DNA of 64,000 nucleotides from a bacterium (GTDB taxonomy: Bacteria > Deinococcota > Deinococci > Deinococcales > Deinococcaceae): contig JAJZIR010000003.1 of the NCBI GenBank assembly GCA_021810505.1, positions 43,565 to 107,564 of the forward strand, given 5' to 3'. Below, one piece after another: positions 1 to 48,643 of the stretch. Below the pieces are notes generated by a model, which had not been told where the DNA came from, made no database searches, and saw nothing but the letters and a program-made list of their open reading frames with translations. Each line of letters begins with the position of its first letter. Position 1 is the first letter of the stretch. The translations under genes and the position numbers were made by a program.

Positions 1-960
1 GCCGTCGGCGCTGCCGCTCCCGAAGCTGTAGATCACTTTCTCGTTCCAGCCGCTGCTGCTCGTGCTGCTAGGGATGAGCTCGAAGACGGTACCGTCACCA
101 CCGCTCGCGCTGCCATTCGCACCGCCTTCTGAGGTCGTCCCGTACAGGTTCCCGTTACTGCTAGGAGTTAGGGAGGCAATGGGGTAGGCGCCGTCAGCAG
201 CGCCACCTGCGAAGTTGTAGATCACCTTCTCGTTCCAGCCGCTGCCGCTAGGGATGAGCTCGAAGGCGGTGCCGTAGCCGTTCGTTCCGCCAACTCCTGC
301 TGTCCCGTACAGGTTCCCACCCATTTGGATCAGGGGGGCATAGGGGCCAGCGCCATCGCTGCCAGTAAAGCTGTGGATCACCTGCTCAGTCCAGCCGCTG
401 CCGCTAGGGATGAGCTCGAAGACGGTGCCGTCATTGTGTGTGCCGCCCCCAGACTGTGTCGTCCCGTACAGGTCCCCGCCCATTTGGATCAGGGAGGCAT
501 AGGGGTGGGCGCTGTCAGCAGCGCTGCTCCCGAAGCTGTAGATCAACTGCTCCCCAGTCACGGTCAGGGGGAAGGTGGTAGACGCGCTCGCCCCCGAGAG
601 GGTAGCGGTCACCTTGACCTGATCGTGACCAGCCAGGTGGGCGGGTGTCGTCGCGGTCAAGGGAACCTGCACGGCCTTGCCGGAAGTGAGCGCCACAGCG
701 GTAGGGCTGAAGCTGAAGTCCGAGCTGGGTAAGGGAGCTCCGTTCTCGCTGACCTGGTAGGTAAGGCTCACCGTCCCGCTCGAGCTGCCGCTGAGCGCCA
801 AGCTTCCCTTGACCGGCTGTCCCTGCGCTACACTGGAGGGACTGGCTACACTCAGGGAAAAGGTGGAGGAGGGCTGGCTAGGTCCAGGTCCCGCACCCTG
901 GCTGCAAGCAGCCAGCAGCAAAGCGGCCCCGGCCAGACCGCCAATGGATCTAATTTTCAT
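1..960 (-). CDS. GloVer-type tandem-repeat lipoprotein (3' end beyond window)
   Basis: The minus-strand frame is open from an ATG at 958-960 to the window edge, so the C-terminus is missing. The N-terminus is a lipoprotein signal (MKIRSIGG, hydrophobic stretch, lipobox LLAAC at about residues 14-18). About 140 residues of Ser/Thr-rich Ig-like sequence follow, then tandem repeats of about 40-50 residues with the pattern Y.SLI...G.LYGTT..GG...GTVFELIPS...W.E.VIYSF. This matches what I know as the GloVer (TIGR03803) repeat, probably a beta-propeller blade; function is unknown. Close paralogue of the gene at 46799 and of the fragment near 30000, sharing the phrase LAGHDQVKVTATLSG. Likely anchored on the cell surface or in the periplasm. 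Confidence 0.8.
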   Translation of the reverse strand, partial: MKIRSIGGLAGAALLLAACSQGAGPGPSQPSSTFSLSVASPSSVAQGQPVKGSLALSGSSSGTVSLTYQVSENGAPLPSSDFSFSPTAVALTSGKAVQVPLTATTPAHLAGHDQVKVTATLSGASASTTFPLTVTGEQLIYSFGSSAADSAHPYASLIQMGGDLYGTTQSGGGTHNDGTVFELIPSGSGWTEQVIHSFTGSDGAGPYAPLIQMGGNLYGTAGVGGTNGYGTAFELIPSGSGWNEKVIYNFAGGAADGAYPIASLTPSSNGNLYGTTSEGGANGSASGGDGTVFELIPSSTSSSGWNEKVIYSFGSGSADG

Positions 961-27621: not shown

Positions 27622-27825
27622 CCGGCAGGACAGCGCCACCTTCCTCAAGGTCTGACTCAGAAGATCGGCCTCACAATTCACCGTTCACATCCCTCCGGTC
27701 CGCTATTCTCGAACCGACTTGGACAGGGCGTCGCGTCGCCACCTCGCGGTGACTTGACCCCGGACTGGTCCGGCCAAAGCACCTCCGGCCGCAGCACCTC
27801 ACATCTCGCTCTCGGAGGAAGTCTC

Positions 27826-29757
27826 ATGCGCCGCTCCCCGCTCCCTGTACTGCTGCTGACCGCCGCTCTCGGACAGGCTTCAGCGCATCTCGCGACCGTT
27901 CTTCCCGGAGATACCCTCAGCGGCTTGGCCGTGCGCTTCGGCGTCTCCAGCCGCAGCATCGCCGATGCGAACCACCTGGTGGGCTCCAACCCGGAGCTGA
28001 GGGCTGGCCAGACCCTCGACATCCCGGGAGCCGCCCATTACACCGTCCAACCGGGGGACACGCCCTGGTCTATCGCCCAGCGGGCCGACATGCCGCTGAC
28101 CCAGCTGGAAGCGCTCAACCCGAGCATCGCCAGCGGCATGGTCCAGGTAGGCATGGTCTTGCAGCTCAGCGGCACCGCCCTGCCGGCGGTCCAGGCGGCG
28201 CCGGCCAAGGCGGCGGCGGTAGCAGCGACCAGCTACGTGGTCCGGAGCGGGGACACCCTCTGGGGGATCGCTCAGAAGCTGGGGATCAGCGTGGCCACCT
28301 TGACCGCGCTCAACCCGCAGGCCGCCACGGCGATGCTGCAGCCGGGGATGATCCTCAAGCTGCGGGGCCGGCCGGCCCCGCCTTCCCTGCCGACCTCCGG
28401 CTACCGGGTCGCCAGCGGGGACACCCTCTGGGGGATCGCCAGCAGCCTGGGGATCAGCGTGGCCGAGCTGGAGCGCCTCAACCCGCAGACGGTCTACCAG
28501 AACCTGCAACCCGGGACGGTCCTGAGAGTCCCCGCGCAGGTCCAGGCCAAGAGCAGCCCGGCCAAGGCGGCGGCGGTAGCAGCGACCAGCTACGTGGTCC
28601 GGAGCGGGGACACCCTCTGGGGGATCGCTCAGAAGCTGGGGATCAGCGTGGCCACCTTGACCGCGCTCAACCCGCAGGCCGCCACGGCGATGCTGCAGCC
28701 GGGGATGATCCTCAAGCTGCGGGGCCGGCCGGCCCCGCCTTCCCTGCCGACCTCCGGCTACCGGGTCGCCAGCGGGGACACCCTCTGGGGGATCGCCAGC
28801 AGCCTGGGGATCAGCGTGGCCGAGCTGGAGCGCCTCAACCCGCAGACGGTCTACCAGAACCTGCAACCCGGGACGGTCCTGAGAGTCCCCGCGCAGGTCC
28901 AGGCCAAGAGCAGCCCGGCCAAGGCGCCGGCGATCCCGACCTCCGGCTACCGGGTCGCCAGCGGGGACACCCTCTGGGGGATCGCCAGCAGCCTGGGGAT
29001 CAGCGTGGCGGAGCTGCTCCGGCTCAATCCGGAAATCGCCTCCTCCACCCTGGTGGCGGGAAGCACCCTGCAGGTCCCAGCCCGCCCCGGGAAGCGCAAG
29101 CGCCCCGCCCCCGCCCCGACCAATCGGGTACAGACCGCCCATCGGGTACAGATCAAGGACGCGCCCAACTACCAATCGGCCGTCGTCGCCCGCCAGGTCG
29201 CCGCGGCAACAGCGCATCCCGGCCTGGCCAGCGCCACCTATACCGTGCGGCCAGGGGACACCCTCAGCGCCATCGCCAGCCGCTACCACGTCAGCGTCGT
29301 CCAGCTAGAGGCGGACAACCCCCAGGTACAATCGGGGGTACTCCAGGTCGGGCAGCAGCTGCACGTACCTACCTTCCTGGACCGGTTGCGCAGCTTCGGG
29401 AGCCGAGTGGTGTCGGTCGCCGAGCGCTTCCTCGGTGTCCCCTACGTCTGGGGGGGTAGCTCCCCCACCGGCTTCGACTGCTCGGGCTTGGTGCAATACG
29501 TGTACCGGCTGCTCGGGTACCAGCTGCCCAGAACCTCGGAAGCGCAGTGGAATGCTGTCCAGCACGTCTCCAAGCCGAAGCCCGGGGATCTGATCTTCAT
29601 GAATTTCCCTGGGGACTATCAGGCCGCCCCCAACCACGTCGGGCTCTACGTCGGTCACGGGAAGATGCTCAACGCCCCCTACCCCGGCCAGCCGGTGCAG
29701 ATCGACAGCGTCCCCTGGGGGAACGTCATGGGTTACGGGCAGCTGACCAGCCAGTAG
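27826..29757 (+). CDS. LysM-repeat NlpC/P60 cell-wall hydrolase
   Basis: 643 residues, secreted: Sec signal (MRRSPLPVLLLTAALGQASA). Eight LysM peptidoglycan-binding motifs follow, recognisable by YxVxxGDTLWGIA, then an NlpC/P60 endopeptidase domain of about 120 residues with catalytic Cys in GFDCSGLVQY and His in PNHVGLYVGHG. It should cut peptide cross-links in peptidoglycan. ATG at 27826 has ribosome site GGAGGA. LysM 3-4 and 5-6 are encoded by an exact 357-bp tandem DNA duplication. Confidence 0.93.
   Translation: MRRSPLPVLLLTAALGQASAHLATVLPGDTLSGLAVRFGVSSRSIADANHLVGSNPELRAGQTLDIPGAAHYTVQPGDTPWSIAQRADMPLTQLEALNPSIASGMVQVGMVLQLSGTALPAVQAAPAKAAAVAATSYVVRSGDTLWGIAQKLGISVATLTALNPQAATAMLQPGMILKLRGRPAPPSLPTSGYRVASGDTLWGIASSLGISVAELERLNPQTVYQNLQPGTVLRVPAQVQAKSSPAKAAAVAATSYVVRSGDTLWGIAQKLGISVATLTALNPQAATAMLQPGMILKLRGRPAPPSLPTSGYRVASGDTLWGIASSLGISVAELERLNPQTVYQNLQPGTVLRVPAQVQAKSSPAKAPAIPTSGYRVASGDTLWGIASSLGISVAELLRLNPEIASSTLVAGSTLQVPARPGKRKRPAPAPTNRVQTAHRVQIKDAPNYQSAVVARQVAAATAHPGLASATYTVRPGDTLSAIASRYHVSVVQLEADNPQVQSGVLQVGQQLHVPTFLDRLRSFGSRVVSVAERFLGVPYVWGGSSPTGFDCSGLVQYVYRLLGYQLPRTSEAQWNAVQHVSKPKPGDLIFMNFPGDYQAAPNHVGLYVGHGKMLNAPYPGQPVQIDSVPWGNVMGYGQLTSQ
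28201..28914 (+). repeat. 357-bp tandem duplication inside the LysM gene
   Basis: The DNA of 28201-28557 is repeated directly at 28558-28914, and I saw no mismatch by eye. Each unit encodes 119 residues with two different LysM motifs plus linkers. A further partial copy of the second LysM follows from about 28933. The identity indicates a very recent duplication or ongoing homogenisation. Confidence 0.85.
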
Positions 29758-29794
29758 CCGCTCGGCGCCCCGCCCCCGCAGGCCTAGAGGGCAC

Positions 29795-29990
29795 CTAGTG
29801 TCGCGCACCCAAAGTTCGTGGACGGGTGGCTCCGGTGGGAATCTCGCTGGCCGCTTCGGTCCAGCCGGTTTTTCGGTCCAGGTGATCGGTCCAGGGGAAC
29901 GGCTTGCAGCGGTCGTTGTAGGCGCCGGTGAACGCACGGCTACCCGAGGTGCGCAGATCGCCGCTGCAGCGCAGCTCACCGGGTACGCCG
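29795..29990 (-). pseudogene. IS630-family transposase C-terminal remnant (left arm)
   Basis: Minus-strand translation shows FTGAYNDRCKPFPWT, the signature near the end of IS630 transposases, followed by a short insert and TRPRTLGARH before the stop. The catalytic domain is absent, so it is not functional. Confidence 0.65.
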
Positions 29991-30590
29991 CGCCTTGCTG
30001 GAAGATATACACCGCTTGGGACGACGGCGCGAGGCGGCGCTTCTGGTGACGGCACCGTCTTCCAGCTCTCACCCCCGGCCTCCTCTGGGGGGAGCTGGGC
30101 CGAGACAGTGCTGTACAGCTTTGGGAGTGGGAGTGACGGCGCCTTCCCCTTCGGCTCCATGATCTTTGACAGCAAGGGGGAGCTGTACGGGACGACGGCG
30201 TATGGTGGCAGTTCCGGTGGCGGTACCGTCTTCCAGCTTTCGCCTCCGACCTCCTCTGGGGGGAGCTGGGCCGAAACAGTGCTGTACAGCTTCGGGGGTA
30301 CCGGTGACGGCGCTCACCCCCGCGCCTCTCTGATCCTCGGCAGCAACGGGGACCTGTACGGGACGACGTATGGCGGCGGCACTCCCGGTGGCGGCACCGT
30401 CTTCCAGCTCTCGCCTCCGGCTTCCCCTGGGGGTAGCTGGACTGAGGCGGTGCTGCACAGCTTTGGGAGTACCGGTGGCGGCAACCTCCCCCGCGCCTCC
30501 CTGATCTTCGGCAGCAACGGGGACCTGTACGGGACGACACTTTCCGGCGGCGCTTCTAATGACGGAACCGTCTTCAAGATCGTCCTCTGA
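29928..30590 (+). pseudogene. truncated GloVer-repeat protein fragment
   Basis: The frame from 29928 encodes 220 residues, but the first 30 or so are read from the transposase remnant and are not protein-like. From about residue 36 there are four GloVer repeats, the first eroded, with the pattern GTVFQLSPP...GSWAETVLYSFG ... GDLYGTT, ending GTVFKIVL like the complete gene at 46799. The lipoprotein signal and Ig-like domains are missing, so the protein would not be exported. Most likely a remnant moved or left behind by recombination with the flanking insertion sequence. Confidence 0.65.
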
Positions 30591-30839
30591 TCCGGCCGAT
30601 CCGGCTGGACGCCCGTAGGGTGGGAATTCAGATAGAGCGACCGGGAGCGTGAGTTGGAATTGAGTGCGCAGGAAGGACTTCCGGCCGCCTTCGGTGCCAG
30701 GTGCCCACCACGGTGCGCTGGAGTTGCGCGCGCTGGGACTCCCGGGGTCAGGGGCCGGGAGCCGGACCGCCGGGGAGTTCCTGTAGGGAGCTACTGCCGC
30801 GCGGCTCAAGTTCGTTGGCAGTTTGGGCCGGGGTCCGGA

Positions 30840-31079
30840 CAACTGGTCTACGATCCCAGCCTCCGGGTCATGGCTGAAACTCGCCGAGCTGTCCTTCGGG
30901 ATCATCACCCGACAGGCAACCCGCAGCGGAATCCGCGGCGGCGCCCAGCAGATGACCACTGCGACCCGCGCGTCCACCGGCGCCTACAGCGACCGCTGCA
31001 AGCCTTCCCCTGGACCGAAGTAGCCGGCGAGATTCCCGCCCAAGTCACCCGTCCACGAGCTTCAGGCGCGCGGCACTAG
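30840..31079 (+). pseudogene. IS630-family transposase C-terminal remnant (right arm)
   Basis: Plus strand. SWLKLAELSFGIITRQATRS (about 30880-30940) is the segment carrying the last acidic residue of the IS630 DDE triad, followed by STGAYSDRCKPS. A frameshift then moves to the frame reading FPWTEVAGEIPAQVTRPRAS and GARH with stop at 31079. The N-terminal catalytic part is missing and the reading frame is broken. Confidence 0.65.
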
Positions 31080-32263
31080 GTGCCTAAGGCTTCCCAGGCC
31101 GCCCGCACCGCCGCGCCCCGCTCGAAAGGGCAGCCCAACGCGGCCAGAGCTTCCTCGAGCAGGCCAGCTACCGCCAGAGCGTCGTAGCGATCGAAGTAGC
31201 CCATCAGCGAGATCCGGAAGGTGAGGTCCTTGTAGGCGTCCTGGCCCGCGGCCGCCCTAGCACCCAGGGCTTGCAGGCTGCGGGTGACCTCGGTCGCGGC
31301 CCAGCCCGGCGGCGGGCAGAGGGTGGCTACCGCCGGGCTGGGCCGCTCCGCGAAAGGCCGGCAGCCCAGGGCTACTCCAGCCTCCAGCAAGGCGCGGCTC
31401 ATCCGCGCGCGCTCACCCCAGAGCACCTCTAGGTCCAGGCTGAGCAGGCGGTCCAGGCTGTAGTCGAGCGCGGCGATCAGGTTGATCGCCGGGGTGTAGG
31501 CGGTCTCCCCTAGGCGCTGGCTGCGCAGTTCCCGGGCTAGGTTCAGGCTGAAGCCTTGCGCCTCCAGGAGGCGCTCGGCCGCGGCGGGCGAGAGGGCCAC
31601 GAAGCCCAGGCCAGGGGGAATCGCGGCGCCCTTCTGGGAGCCGGCGATCACCGCGTCCAAGCCCCAGGCCAGCGGGAGCAGCGGGGCGACCGCAAAGCTG
31701 GTCACCGCATCGACCAGGATGAGCAGATCCGGTTCGGTCGCCCTGGCGGCGGCGGCGATCGCCTCCACGTCGTGCAGCACGCCCGTACTGGTCTCGCTGT
31801 GGGTCAGCAGCAAAGCTGCCTTGCCGGAAACCGCCGCCGCTACCTGCCCTGGATCTAGGGCCTGGCCCCAGGGGGCCTCCAGGCGCTCGACCCGGTAGCC
31901 CAGCCGCTCGGCCATCTGGCCCCAGCGCGCGCCGAATTTGCCGGCGCTGGCCGAGAGCACCGGGGCTTCCCTGGGGACCAGGCTGGTCAGGGCCGCCTCG
32001 AAGGCCCCGGTACCCGAGCTGGTGGTGAGCAGAACCTCGGCGCCGGCGAACAGGCGCTGCAATTTGGCGCGCACCGAAGAGATCAGGGCCCTCGCCTCTG
32101 GGCTGCGGTGGTGGATCTGGGGCTGGGCCAAGCGCAGCAGCGCGCGCGGATCCACTTCGACCGGCCCAGGGGCGAGCAGCCGCGGGCGCAGCCACCCGGT
32201 CAGGTCGGGGTAGGGGGAGCCGCCCCGGTCGGGGCGGTCAGGGTCGGGTAGAGGGGTCGGCAC
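31076..32263 (-). CDS. class V aminotransferase, probable phosphoserine/serine-type
   Basis: 395-residue PLP enzyme. LLAPGPVEVDPRALLRLAQP is typical of the SerC/serine-pyruvate/alanine-glyoxylate group, LLTTSSGTGAFEAAL binds PLP, VDAVTSFAV holds the Asp, and the PLP lysine is in AGSQKGAAIPPGLGF. GTG start with AAAGGAG ribosome site. It lies just downstream of serA on the same strand, so I infer phosphohydroxypyruvate aminotransferase in serine synthesis; alanine-glyoxylate activity is the alternative. The stop lies in the edge of the IS remnant, so the last residues may be altered. Confidence 0.85.
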   Translation of the reverse strand: MPTPLPDPDRPDRGGSPYPDLTGWLRPRLLAPGPVEVDPRALLRLAQPQIHHRSPEARALISSVRAKLQRLFAGAEVLLTTSSGTGAFEAALTSLVPREAPVLSASAGKFGARWGQMAERLGYRVERLEAPWGQALDPGQVAAAVSGKAALLLTHSETSTGVLHDVEAIAAAARATEPDLLILVDAVTSFAVAPLLPLAWGLDAVIAGSQKGAAIPPGLGFVALSPAAAERLLEAQGFSLNLARELRSQRLGETAYTPAINLIAALDYSLDRLLSLDLEVLWGERARMSRALLEAGVALGCRPFAERPSPAVATLCPPPGWAATEVTRSLQALGARAAAGQDAYKDLTFRISLMGYFDRYDALAVAGLLEEALAALGCPFERGAAVRAAWEALGT

Positions 32264-46499: not shown

Positions 46500-46798
46500 G
46501 AAGGGCAGGTAGCGCGCGTCCGGGGGCTCAGCGTATAGAGCTGAGATCCAGGAACGCCGGAGCATACAGCCACCCTACGGGACGGGGCAGTAGGCCACTC
46601 CGATCGGCTGCCTGGACGAGCTGGACTGCCTAAAGGCGTAGCAGCTTTACCTTAACTCGCCCACCTCCGGTTCCCCCGGGTAGCCCGCAGAACCACCCCG
46701 GAAGTCGAGCAGTGGACTCCCAGCCCCACCCCCGCAGTTCGGTTCTTTTCACGAATTTTTTAACATATTCATAGCTTAACCTTTTTGAGTGGAGTTCT
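46500..46798. other. intergenic region upstream of the GloVer lipoprotein
   Basis: No gene found. The last 60 bases (from about 46740) are AT-rich with several A/T tracts and likely hold the promoter of the next gene, but no clear -35/-10 pair stands out. The first 200 bases are GC-rich and featureless. Confidence 0.45.
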
Positions 46799-48643
46799 AT
46801 GAAACCCAGCCTGCTGATAGGGACCATCCTGCTCCTGGCCGCCTGCAACCAAGGGGGGATCCCCGGCCTCTCTCTCTCTCCGCAGCAGGGAGCCGCCCTC
46901 AGCGTCCCCGCCGGGGGGAGCGCTCAGGAGAATCTTCAGCTCTCCTCCCTCCACGGGATCAACGGGACAGTGCAGCTGAGCTATCAGGTGCGCCAAGGGG
47001 GAAAGAGCGTCTCCGGCTTCAATTTCAGCCCTAGCTCGGTAACCAGGCCGAACAGCTCTCCTCTCAACCTGCAGATTAGGGTGAGCGTCTCGGCGCAGGT
47101 GGCTCCCGGGACCTATCAGGTCCAAGTGACGGCTCAGGAAGGGGGAGCCAGCAGCCAGGCTGGCTTCCAGGTCCAGGTCAGCTCGGCTTTGTCCTTAACT
47201 GGAGCTACTGCTCTCTCCGTCTCCCAAGGAAGCAGTGGAAGTGAGAGCTTGAGCTTGAGCAGTCAGGACTCAAGCGGGACCGTGCAGCTGAGCTATCAGG
47301 TCAGCGAGAACGGAGCTTCCTTACCCAGCTCGGGCTTCAGCTTCAGCCCCACTACCGTGAACCTCTCTGCTGGCAAGCCAGTGCAGATCCCCTTGAAGGT
47401 CCAAACTCCTTCCAACCTGGCCGGTCACGATCAGGTCAAGGTCACCGCTACCCTCTCGGGGATGAGCACCTCAGCTACCTTCCCCCTGACCGTGACCGGG
47501 GAACAGGTGATCCATAACTTCAGCGGTAATTACGACGCCTACCCCTATGCCTCTCTGATCAAAGGCAGCAACGGGGACCTGTACGGGACGACCATTGGTA
47601 CGTATAACGCACCGAAAGAATTCGGCACCACCTTCCAGCTCGCGCAGAGCGGGAACGCCTGGGCCGAGACGGTGCTCCACATATTTCAGGGTGCAACCAG
47701 CGACGGCGCCCAGCCCTTCGCCCCCCTGATCTTTGGCAGCAACGGGGACCTGTACGGGACGACGGAAAATGGCGGAGCGAACTATAAAGGCACCGTCTTC
47801 CAGCTCGCGCAGAGCGGGGGTTCCTGGACTGAAACGGTGCTCTACAGCTTCAGCAGCAGTAGCGGCGCCTTCCCCCAAGCCCCACTGATTCTCGGCAGCA
47901 ACGGGGACCTGTACGGGACGACATCTGGATCCGGTAGCGGAACGAACGGTAACGGCACCGTCTTCCAGCTCGCACCTCCGAGCTCCCCGGGAGGCAACTG
48001 GACCGAGACGGTGCTCCACAGCTTTCAGGGTGGGAGTGACGGCGCTACCCCCCTCGCCGCTCTGATCCAGGGAAGCAACGGGGACCTGTACGGGACGACG
48101 GAGGATGGCGGAACGAACGGTGACGGCACCGTCTTCCAGCTCGCACAGAGCGGGGGGGCCTGGACCGAGACGGTGCTCCACAGCTTCGGGAGTGGCAGCG
48201 ACGGCTTCCACCCTCTTGCCTCCCTGATCAAAGGCAGCAACGGGGACCTGTACGGGACGACGGCAGGCGGCGGAGCGAACAGTTACGGCACCGTCTTCCA
48301 GATCTCGCCCAGCGGAGCCGAGACGGTGATCTATAGCTTCAACAGTAGTAGCGGCGCCTTCCCCCAAGCCCCGCTGATTCTCGGCAGCAACGGGGACCTG
48401 TACGGGACGACGTTCGGTACGTATAACGGCGGAGCGAACAATGTAGGCACCGTCTTCCAGCTCGCACCTCCGAGCTCCCCGGGAGGCACCTGGACCGGGA
48501 CGGTGCTCCACAGCTTTCAGGGTGGGGCCGACGGCGCCAACCCCGTCGCCGCTCTGATCCAGGGAAGCAACGGGGACCTGTACGGGACGACGGAGTACGG
48601 CGGAGCGAGCGGTGAAGGCACTGTCTTCAAGGTGGTGCCCTGA
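46799..48643 (+). CDS. GloVer-type tandem-repeat lipoprotein (complete)
   Basis: 614 residues. Lipoprotein signal MKPSLLIGTILLLAAC (Cys16). Two Ig-like domains of about 110 residues follow (both with GTVQLSYQV), then seven repeats of about 45-55 residues, each with SNGDLYGTT and GTVFQLA...W.ETVLHSF. The repeats match the GloVer (TIGR03803) family, probably beta-propeller blades; seven would make a typical propeller. Ribosome site GTGGAG. Paralogue of 1-960 and of the fragment at 30000. Base composition is a little less GC-rich than its neighbours. Function unknown; surface binding or adhesion is a guess. Confidence 0.85.
   Translation: MKPSLLIGTILLLAACNQGGIPGLSLSPQQGAALSVPAGGSAQENLQLSSLHGINGTVQLSYQVRQGGKSVSGFNFSPSSVTRPNSSPLNLQIRVSVSAQVAPGTYQVQVTAQEGGASSQAGFQVQVSSALSLTGATALSVSQGSSGSESLSLSSQDSSGTVQLSYQVSENGASLPSSGFSFSPTTVNLSAGKPVQIPLKVQTPSNLAGHDQVKVTATLSGMSTSATFPLTVTGEQVIHNFSGNYDAYPYASLIKGSNGDLYGTTIGTYNAPKEFGTTFQLAQSGNAWAETVLHIFQGATSDGAQPFAPLIFGSNGDLYGTTENGGANYKGTVFQLAQSGGSWTETVLYSFSSSSGAFPQAPLILGSNGDLYGTTSGSGSGTNGNGTVFQLAPPSSPGGNWTETVLHSFQGGSDGATPLAALIQGSNGDLYGTTEDGGTNGDGTVFQLAQSGGAWTETVLHSFGSGSDGFHPLASLIKGSNGDLYGTTAGGGANSYGTVFQISPSGAETVIYSFNSSSGAFPQAPLILGSNGDLYGTTFGTYNGGANNVGTVFQLAPPSSPGGTWTGTVLHSFQGGADGANPVAALIQGSNGDLYGTTEYGGASGEGTVFKVVP

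Follow-up and report, generated by a model that had tools for sequence, protein, structure and literature searches.

The gene at 46799-48643 encodes a protein in which a lipoprotein-type signal sequence is followed by two Ig-like domains and then by seven GloVer repeats. We favour, at somewhat better than even confidence, the reading that it specifies an acquired and multiplied surface lipoprotein propeller that probably binds a ligand. The gene (hereafter the focal gene) was found in a 64,000-nt stretch of DNA (the window) from a draft assembly of 26 contigs and 2.31 Mb. The RpoB of the host genome is closest to Thermus chains of the PDB (885 bits, against 718 for the next group; entries such as 1iw7, which we take to be Thermus RpoB), and the host is therefore Deinococcota-like.

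Results

The focal gene and its product

The TIGR03803 (GloVer, NCBIfam) model matched the 614-aa product in seven stretches with 302.7 bits (E 2.2e-92), against a curated cut-off of 44 bits, as the family name given in the first-pass annotation had implied. The same model matched none of 14 well-known control genomes; the GloVer match is therefore not a chance result. The protein begins MKPSLLIGTILLLAACNQGG, a short hydrophobic signal in which the lipobox L-A-A-C forms residues 13-16, and the lipobox regions of paralogues read VACSQGG, VGCSQGG and AACSQGA. The lipobox is followed by the Ig-like domains and then by the repeats (Table 1). By a simple hydrophobicity rule, a signal sequence is present in 58 of 62 GloVer members, and nearly all relatives consist of an export signal and one propeller, often with no other part. 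The product is very likely an exported lipoprotein, and the lipobox together with the secretion signals on nearly all relatives points to display at the cell surface. A consensus scan found neither a sigma-70 promoter nor a terminator.

Table 1. Features of the GloVer loci in the window (positions as numbered in the window)
Feature	Position	Strand	Basis
5' part, with signal, one Ig-like domain and repeats 1-3, of second GloVer lipoprotein gene that runs past window	1..960	-	
Left arm, imperfect inverted repeat around 30-kb GloVer fragment	29790..29971	.	arms 75-84% complementary
5'-truncated GloVer fragment, about 3.4 repeats, without signal or Ig domain	30033..30590	+	
Right arm, imperfect inverted repeat around 30-kb GloVer fragment	30934..31084	.	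arms 75-84% complementary
GGAG, likely ribosome-binding site, 4 nt upstream of ATG	46791..46794	+	direct sequence reading
GloVer-repeat lipoprotein gene, 614 aa	46799..48643	+	ORF; TIGR03803 302.7 bits; AlphaFold2 whole protein pLDDT 90.5, pTM 0.81
Signal peptide of lipoprotein type with lipobox LAAC, residues 1-16	46799..46846	+	sequence; same layout in paralogues
Ig-like domain 1, residues about 24-128	46868..47182	+	model strand pattern; relatives in other proteins of order
Ig-like domain 2, residues about 131-234	47189..47500	+	model strand pattern; conserved in paralogues
N-terminal strand EQVIHNF, proposed to close last blade as its strand D	47501..47521	+	DSSP strand 2-8, propeller model
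Repeat 1	47501..47665	+	own profile HMM, seven domains
Repeat 2	47666..47830	+	own profile HMM
Repeat 3	47831..48001	+	own profile HMM
Repeat 4	48002..48163	+	own profile HMM
Repeat 5	48164..48319	+	own profile HMM
Repeat 6	48320..48496	+	own profile HMM
Repeat 7, ends GTVFKVVP without W-T-E-T-V-L strand	48497..48640	+	own profile HMM

Repeat number and predicted fold

Repeats were counted in the open reading frames of the fetched loci with our own profile of 216 repeat units. Exactly seven were present in 58 of 67 complete GloVer open reading frames, with 14 in one and 13 in another, and the exceptions at three to five repeats include fragments, the host genome's own C23 copy and its own gap-broken copy (see below). 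Five annotated GloVer proteins from plasmid records, outside the profile set, were counted as well: those of Granulicella, Methylocystis, Paraburkholderia and Novosphingobium have 7 repeats each, weak at the termini in the Novosphingobium protein, and that of Adhaeribacter has about 14, or roughly two sets of seven. Across proteins, blades are 50.3% identical at the same index versus 49.4% at different indices, and the mean identity within one protein is 54.9%. Since the memory of index is near nil and likeness within a protein is higher, blades appear to turn over within proteins, yet their count stays at seven, as would be expected under selection for a closed ring.

The AlphaFold2 model of the propeller alone (residues 233-614, 59 sequences) is all-beta, with a pLDDT of 93.6 and a pTM of 0.92, and DSSP assigns four strands to each repeat, three of them clear and one short; the alignment for the whole 614-aa protein held 57 sequences. 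Foldseek searches of the PDB with the propeller alone returned beta-propellers, including designed Cake proteins (Cake8) and the seven-bladed Photorhabdus lectin PLL5, and searches with the whole protein returned mostly Ig-domain proteins. No entry significantly related to the GloVer protein was retrieved by a sequence search of the PDB. The earlier suggestion that seven repeats would close one propeller fits the repeat counts as well as the modelled blades and their Foldseek matches, and a seven-bladed beta-propeller is predicted for the focal repeats with near certainty. Neither outcome that the first-pass annotation had named as contradicting its reading, a missing TIGR03803 match or a model devoid of blades, was observed.

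In the arrangement that we propose, each GloVer repeat would form one blade with strands A (ASLI), B (DLYGTT), C (GTVFQL) and D (WTETVLHSF), the names of strands and loops being our own assignment. A lone D strand (EQVIHNF) would open the chain and an A-B-C blade would end it, so that the N-terminal strand completes the ring. The first repeat of GloVer proteins indeed opens with an ExVLxSF strand. The last repeat stops at GTVF.xxP, lacking the following WTExVL strand in the focal protein and in nearly all relatives. In combination with the DSSP assignment, these termini fit a "velcro" closure of the predicted ring. The exported lipoprotein would accordingly display a single seven-bladed propeller atop a stalk of two Ig-like domains, though the four-repeat C23 paralogue does not fit a one-chain ring and was counted against the explanation.

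Among viral models, the best structure match was BFVD A0A481Z910 (Pithovirus LCPAC304; 27% identity, TM 0.77), which may be a GloVer protein in a giant virus. Phage records encoded no relative.

Kinship and origin

TIGR03803 matched none of the 110 other genomes of the host phylum that were examined, three of the same family included, and relatives of the Ig-like stalk occur in 26 of the 41 genomes examined from the order (own genome counted). The best 80 of 327 loci related to the propeller belong mostly to Acidobacteriota and then to Pseudomonadota, a distribution biased by the search pattern; the first-pass annotation had placed the family mainly in Gloeobacter and Verrucomicrobia, which is not what these loci show. 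The host's own copies form one clade (100/97), next to which stand gammaproteobacterial GloVer lipoproteins with weaker support (88/96). In a four-protein group that includes both, half of the repeats have a glycine in loop AB replacing the common aspartate.

Compared with other TIGR03803 proteins, the focal protein shares the far-above-cut-off match and the seven repeats. It differs in its N-terminal lipobox and two Ig-like domains, in a loop AB that reads GSNGD and not the common DxAGN, and in its host phylum, otherwise devoid of the family in the genomes examined. The lack of TIGR03803 elsewhere in the phylum and the stalk relatives in the order together suggest that the propeller was gained horizontally, fused to a lipoprotein stalk native to the lineage and then expanded locally. 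The propeller was in all probability acquired from outside the phylum, and the simplest reading of the sequences is one horizontal gain followed by expansion: the propeller would have entered the Deinococcota-like lineage, joined the native Ig-like lipoprotein stalk and then been copied, as a GloVer gene, to several sites in the genome.

Other copies in the genome

The assembly holds 44 GloVer repeats in eight genes or fragments (by contig, C17:43k, C17:73.6k, C17:91k, which is the focal gene, C22:99k, C2:29k, C8:332k, C8:337k and C23:132k), in keeping with the small paralogous family proposed in the first-pass annotation. Seven repeats each are present in the focal gene and in the C22, C2 and C8:332k copies, and four in the C23 copy; the C17:73.6k (window 30033-30590) and C8:337k (C8:337.4k) copies are truncated.

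All three GloVer loci that had been recognized in the window match TIGR03803: besides the focal gene, locus 1-960 (-) gave 108.2 bits in three stretches within the window, and locus 29928-30590 (+) gave 147.5 bits in four stretches. The homology of the latter begins near 30033, and this locus is a 5'-truncated fragment, not a working member. A lipoprotein signal and Ig-like domains had correctly been read in two of the loci, the focal gene having two such domains and the 1-960 copy one. The long identical phrases reported for them exist at the protein level but do not extend to the DNA, where the longest exact tract between the focal gene and any other copy is 34 bp; the idea that the focal gene is a recent product of gene conversion was rejected on this ground.

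The gene at 1-960 extends outside the window to C17:42.9k, with three further repeats beyond a 100-N assembly gap (L031:3466-3565, just left of the window). The gap lies inside the GloVer gene, has an identical 126-bp stretch at its flanks and is an assembly overlap; the gap-broken gene has at least six repeats. The inverted repeat around the 30-kb fragment has the ends GGCACCTAGTG/CACTAGGTGCC, and a relative of it was found 3' of the C23 GloVer gene. Inverted repeats and fragment together (29790-31084) possibly form a small mobile element.

In the C2 and C8:332k copies, a TAG directly follows the lipobox (MKTSLASCLAGAALILVGCS*GG; L035:2640-2800 and L036:3680-3840). This stop falls in a 5' block of 726 bp that is identical in the two copies; beyond it, identity between their repeats falls to roughly 50-90% in windows of 60 bp, a gene-conversion signature unless it is an artefact of the gapped draft assembly. 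Furthermore, a 216-bp identical block is shared with the C23 copy. In the reading that we favour, blade duplication, gene conversion, truncation and the shared stop codon now reshape or inactivate part of the copies. By NG86, a crude method here applied to few sequences, dN/dS is 0.29-0.32 among the focal, C22 and C23 copies (0.32 for the focal gene versus each of the two other copies tested that carry a signal), 0.63-0.76 within the young subfamily (C2, C8 and C23 copies) and 0.53-0.74 for the 30-kb fragment. These differences suggest constraint on the intact lipoproteins, and relaxation or diversification in the young set.

Further repeated sequences were observed near GloVer loci. Similar short sequences (translated CAVTGPQDHAATHYCQ / YAVTSPQDHFATHHCQ) precede both C8 copies (L036:3340-3400 and L036:9330-9400) and perhaps mark the boundary of a copied unit. 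A coiled-coil-like open reading frame near the C23 gene (L037:94-587) has a 254-bp direct repeat at 98% identity. In the window, 27754-29757 encodes an NlpC/P60 protein with about eight LysM domains and includes a 218-bp direct repeat whose 92% identity indicates recent LysM duplication.

Discussion

Probable ligand binding and related propellers

Of 57 relatives, 27 have a Pfam Tachylectin (PF14517) match at E <= 0.01 (best 2e-15), and the 30-kb fragment has one with 32.6 bits (gathering score 29.8), whereas a Pfam search with the focal protein itself gave no PF14517 match. In the loop before strand D of the blade profile, G is conserved at 93% and W at 96% of the blades that have the respective column. 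Conservation of G and W also characterizes loop CD of the VCBS/tachylectin supercluster, whose lectin-type members are marked by GW in loop DA' and DxDxDG in loop AB (PMC8023676). Neither a GW in loop DA' nor the calcium-type DxDxDG of loop AB occurs in the blade profile, and its loops from DLYGTT to GTVF are highly variable. Thus, the resemblance to tachylectin-like propellers lies in the G...W loop and in the sequence similarity of relatives and fragment, and the difference in the five blades of tachylectin-2 against seven and in the lack of a loop DA' GW. The seven-bladed PLL/PVL lectins (PLL5, 8q83) are alike in fold and blade number (Foldseek E 1.9e-9, TM 0.58/0.65), albeit at about 15% identity, and PVL has the DxDxDG calcium loop that GloVer lacks. 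PLL lectins are not known to have an Ig stalk or a lipid anchor.

The tachylectin-like similarity of relatives and the presence of a lectin propeller among the fold matches suggest ligand binding, and the GloVer propeller is most likely a multivalent, surface-displayed binding module. Intact copies would use equivalent sites spaced around the ring to retain a ligand, perhaps a glycan, at the cell surface; that the ligand is a glycan is a tentative proposal, to which we give somewhat less than even weight.

Alternative explanations

The same surface propeller could instead bind proteins, or serve the envelope or biofilm as a spacer with a structural or adhesive role. Many propellers act as scaffolds for protein interactions (PMC8023676), and the missing lectin motifs of loops AB and DA' and the variable DLYGTT-GTVF loops would suit such a role. 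Still, the tachylectin similarity in 27 of 57 relatives, the conserved G...W loop and a lectin as the best natural fold match in the PDB make it rather unlikely. Catalysis deserves least credence: lactonases, sialidases and PQQ propellers also appear in the Foldseek list, with weaker but comparable scores, and the fold therefore does not choose the function. However, the conserved residues, mostly glycine, aromatic or hydrophobic ones, recur from blade to blade, no asymmetric set of active-site type was observed, and the repeats have no enzyme family match, so that a lactonase, sialidase or PQQ-like enzyme is hardly to be expected.

The condition of the copies bears on two further readings. 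Two truncated fragments (window 30033-30590 and C8:337.4k), the TAG that two copies share immediately behind the lipobox and a dN/dS of 0.53-0.76 in the young subfamily would be compatible with a mostly decaying, proliferating gene family of little function, maintained by duplication. This is improbable as an account of the whole set, in which the focal and C22 copies are intact, with seven repeats and a dN/dS of about 0.32, and even the stop-bearing copies retain long open frames after the stop. Alternatively, truncated and stop-bearing copies could serve as silent donors to expressed lipoprotein genes, blades being reshuffled by gene conversion for surface variation while seven are kept. The C2/C8 block, ending sharply in much less similar repeats, and the block shared with the C23 copy speak for such a system, which we nevertheless consider very improbable: exact tracts between the focal gene and the other copies do not exceed 34 bp, neither a recombinase nor a switching signal was identified, and the identical blocks could be artefacts of the gapped draft.

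Meaning for the family

The preferred reading, a ligand-binding surface propeller gained from outside and then multiplied, resembles the highly repetitive, re-amplified and disrupted propellers described by Pereira and Lupas 2022 (PMC9218822) in its near-identical blades, their turnover and the disrupted copies. That set has diverse blade numbers, whereas GloVer strongly prefers seven; the main text of that paper does not name GloVer, and no paper about TIGR03803 or proteins with GloVer repeats turned up in our full-text literature search. The family label was already known; the present analysis contributes the repeat-number evidence, the predicted fold and the likely supercluster, together with an isolated, multiplied and partly damaged GloVer set in the host phylum.

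GloVer proteins are frequent in soil Acidobacteriota and Pseudomonadota. With a repeat that comes in sevens and a predicted propeller with VCBS/tachylectin features, an unexplained repeat becomes a testable candidate for a ligand-binding module, and the Deinococcota-like copies would provide an example of such a module captured across phyla, fused to a native lipoprotein stalk and multiplied.
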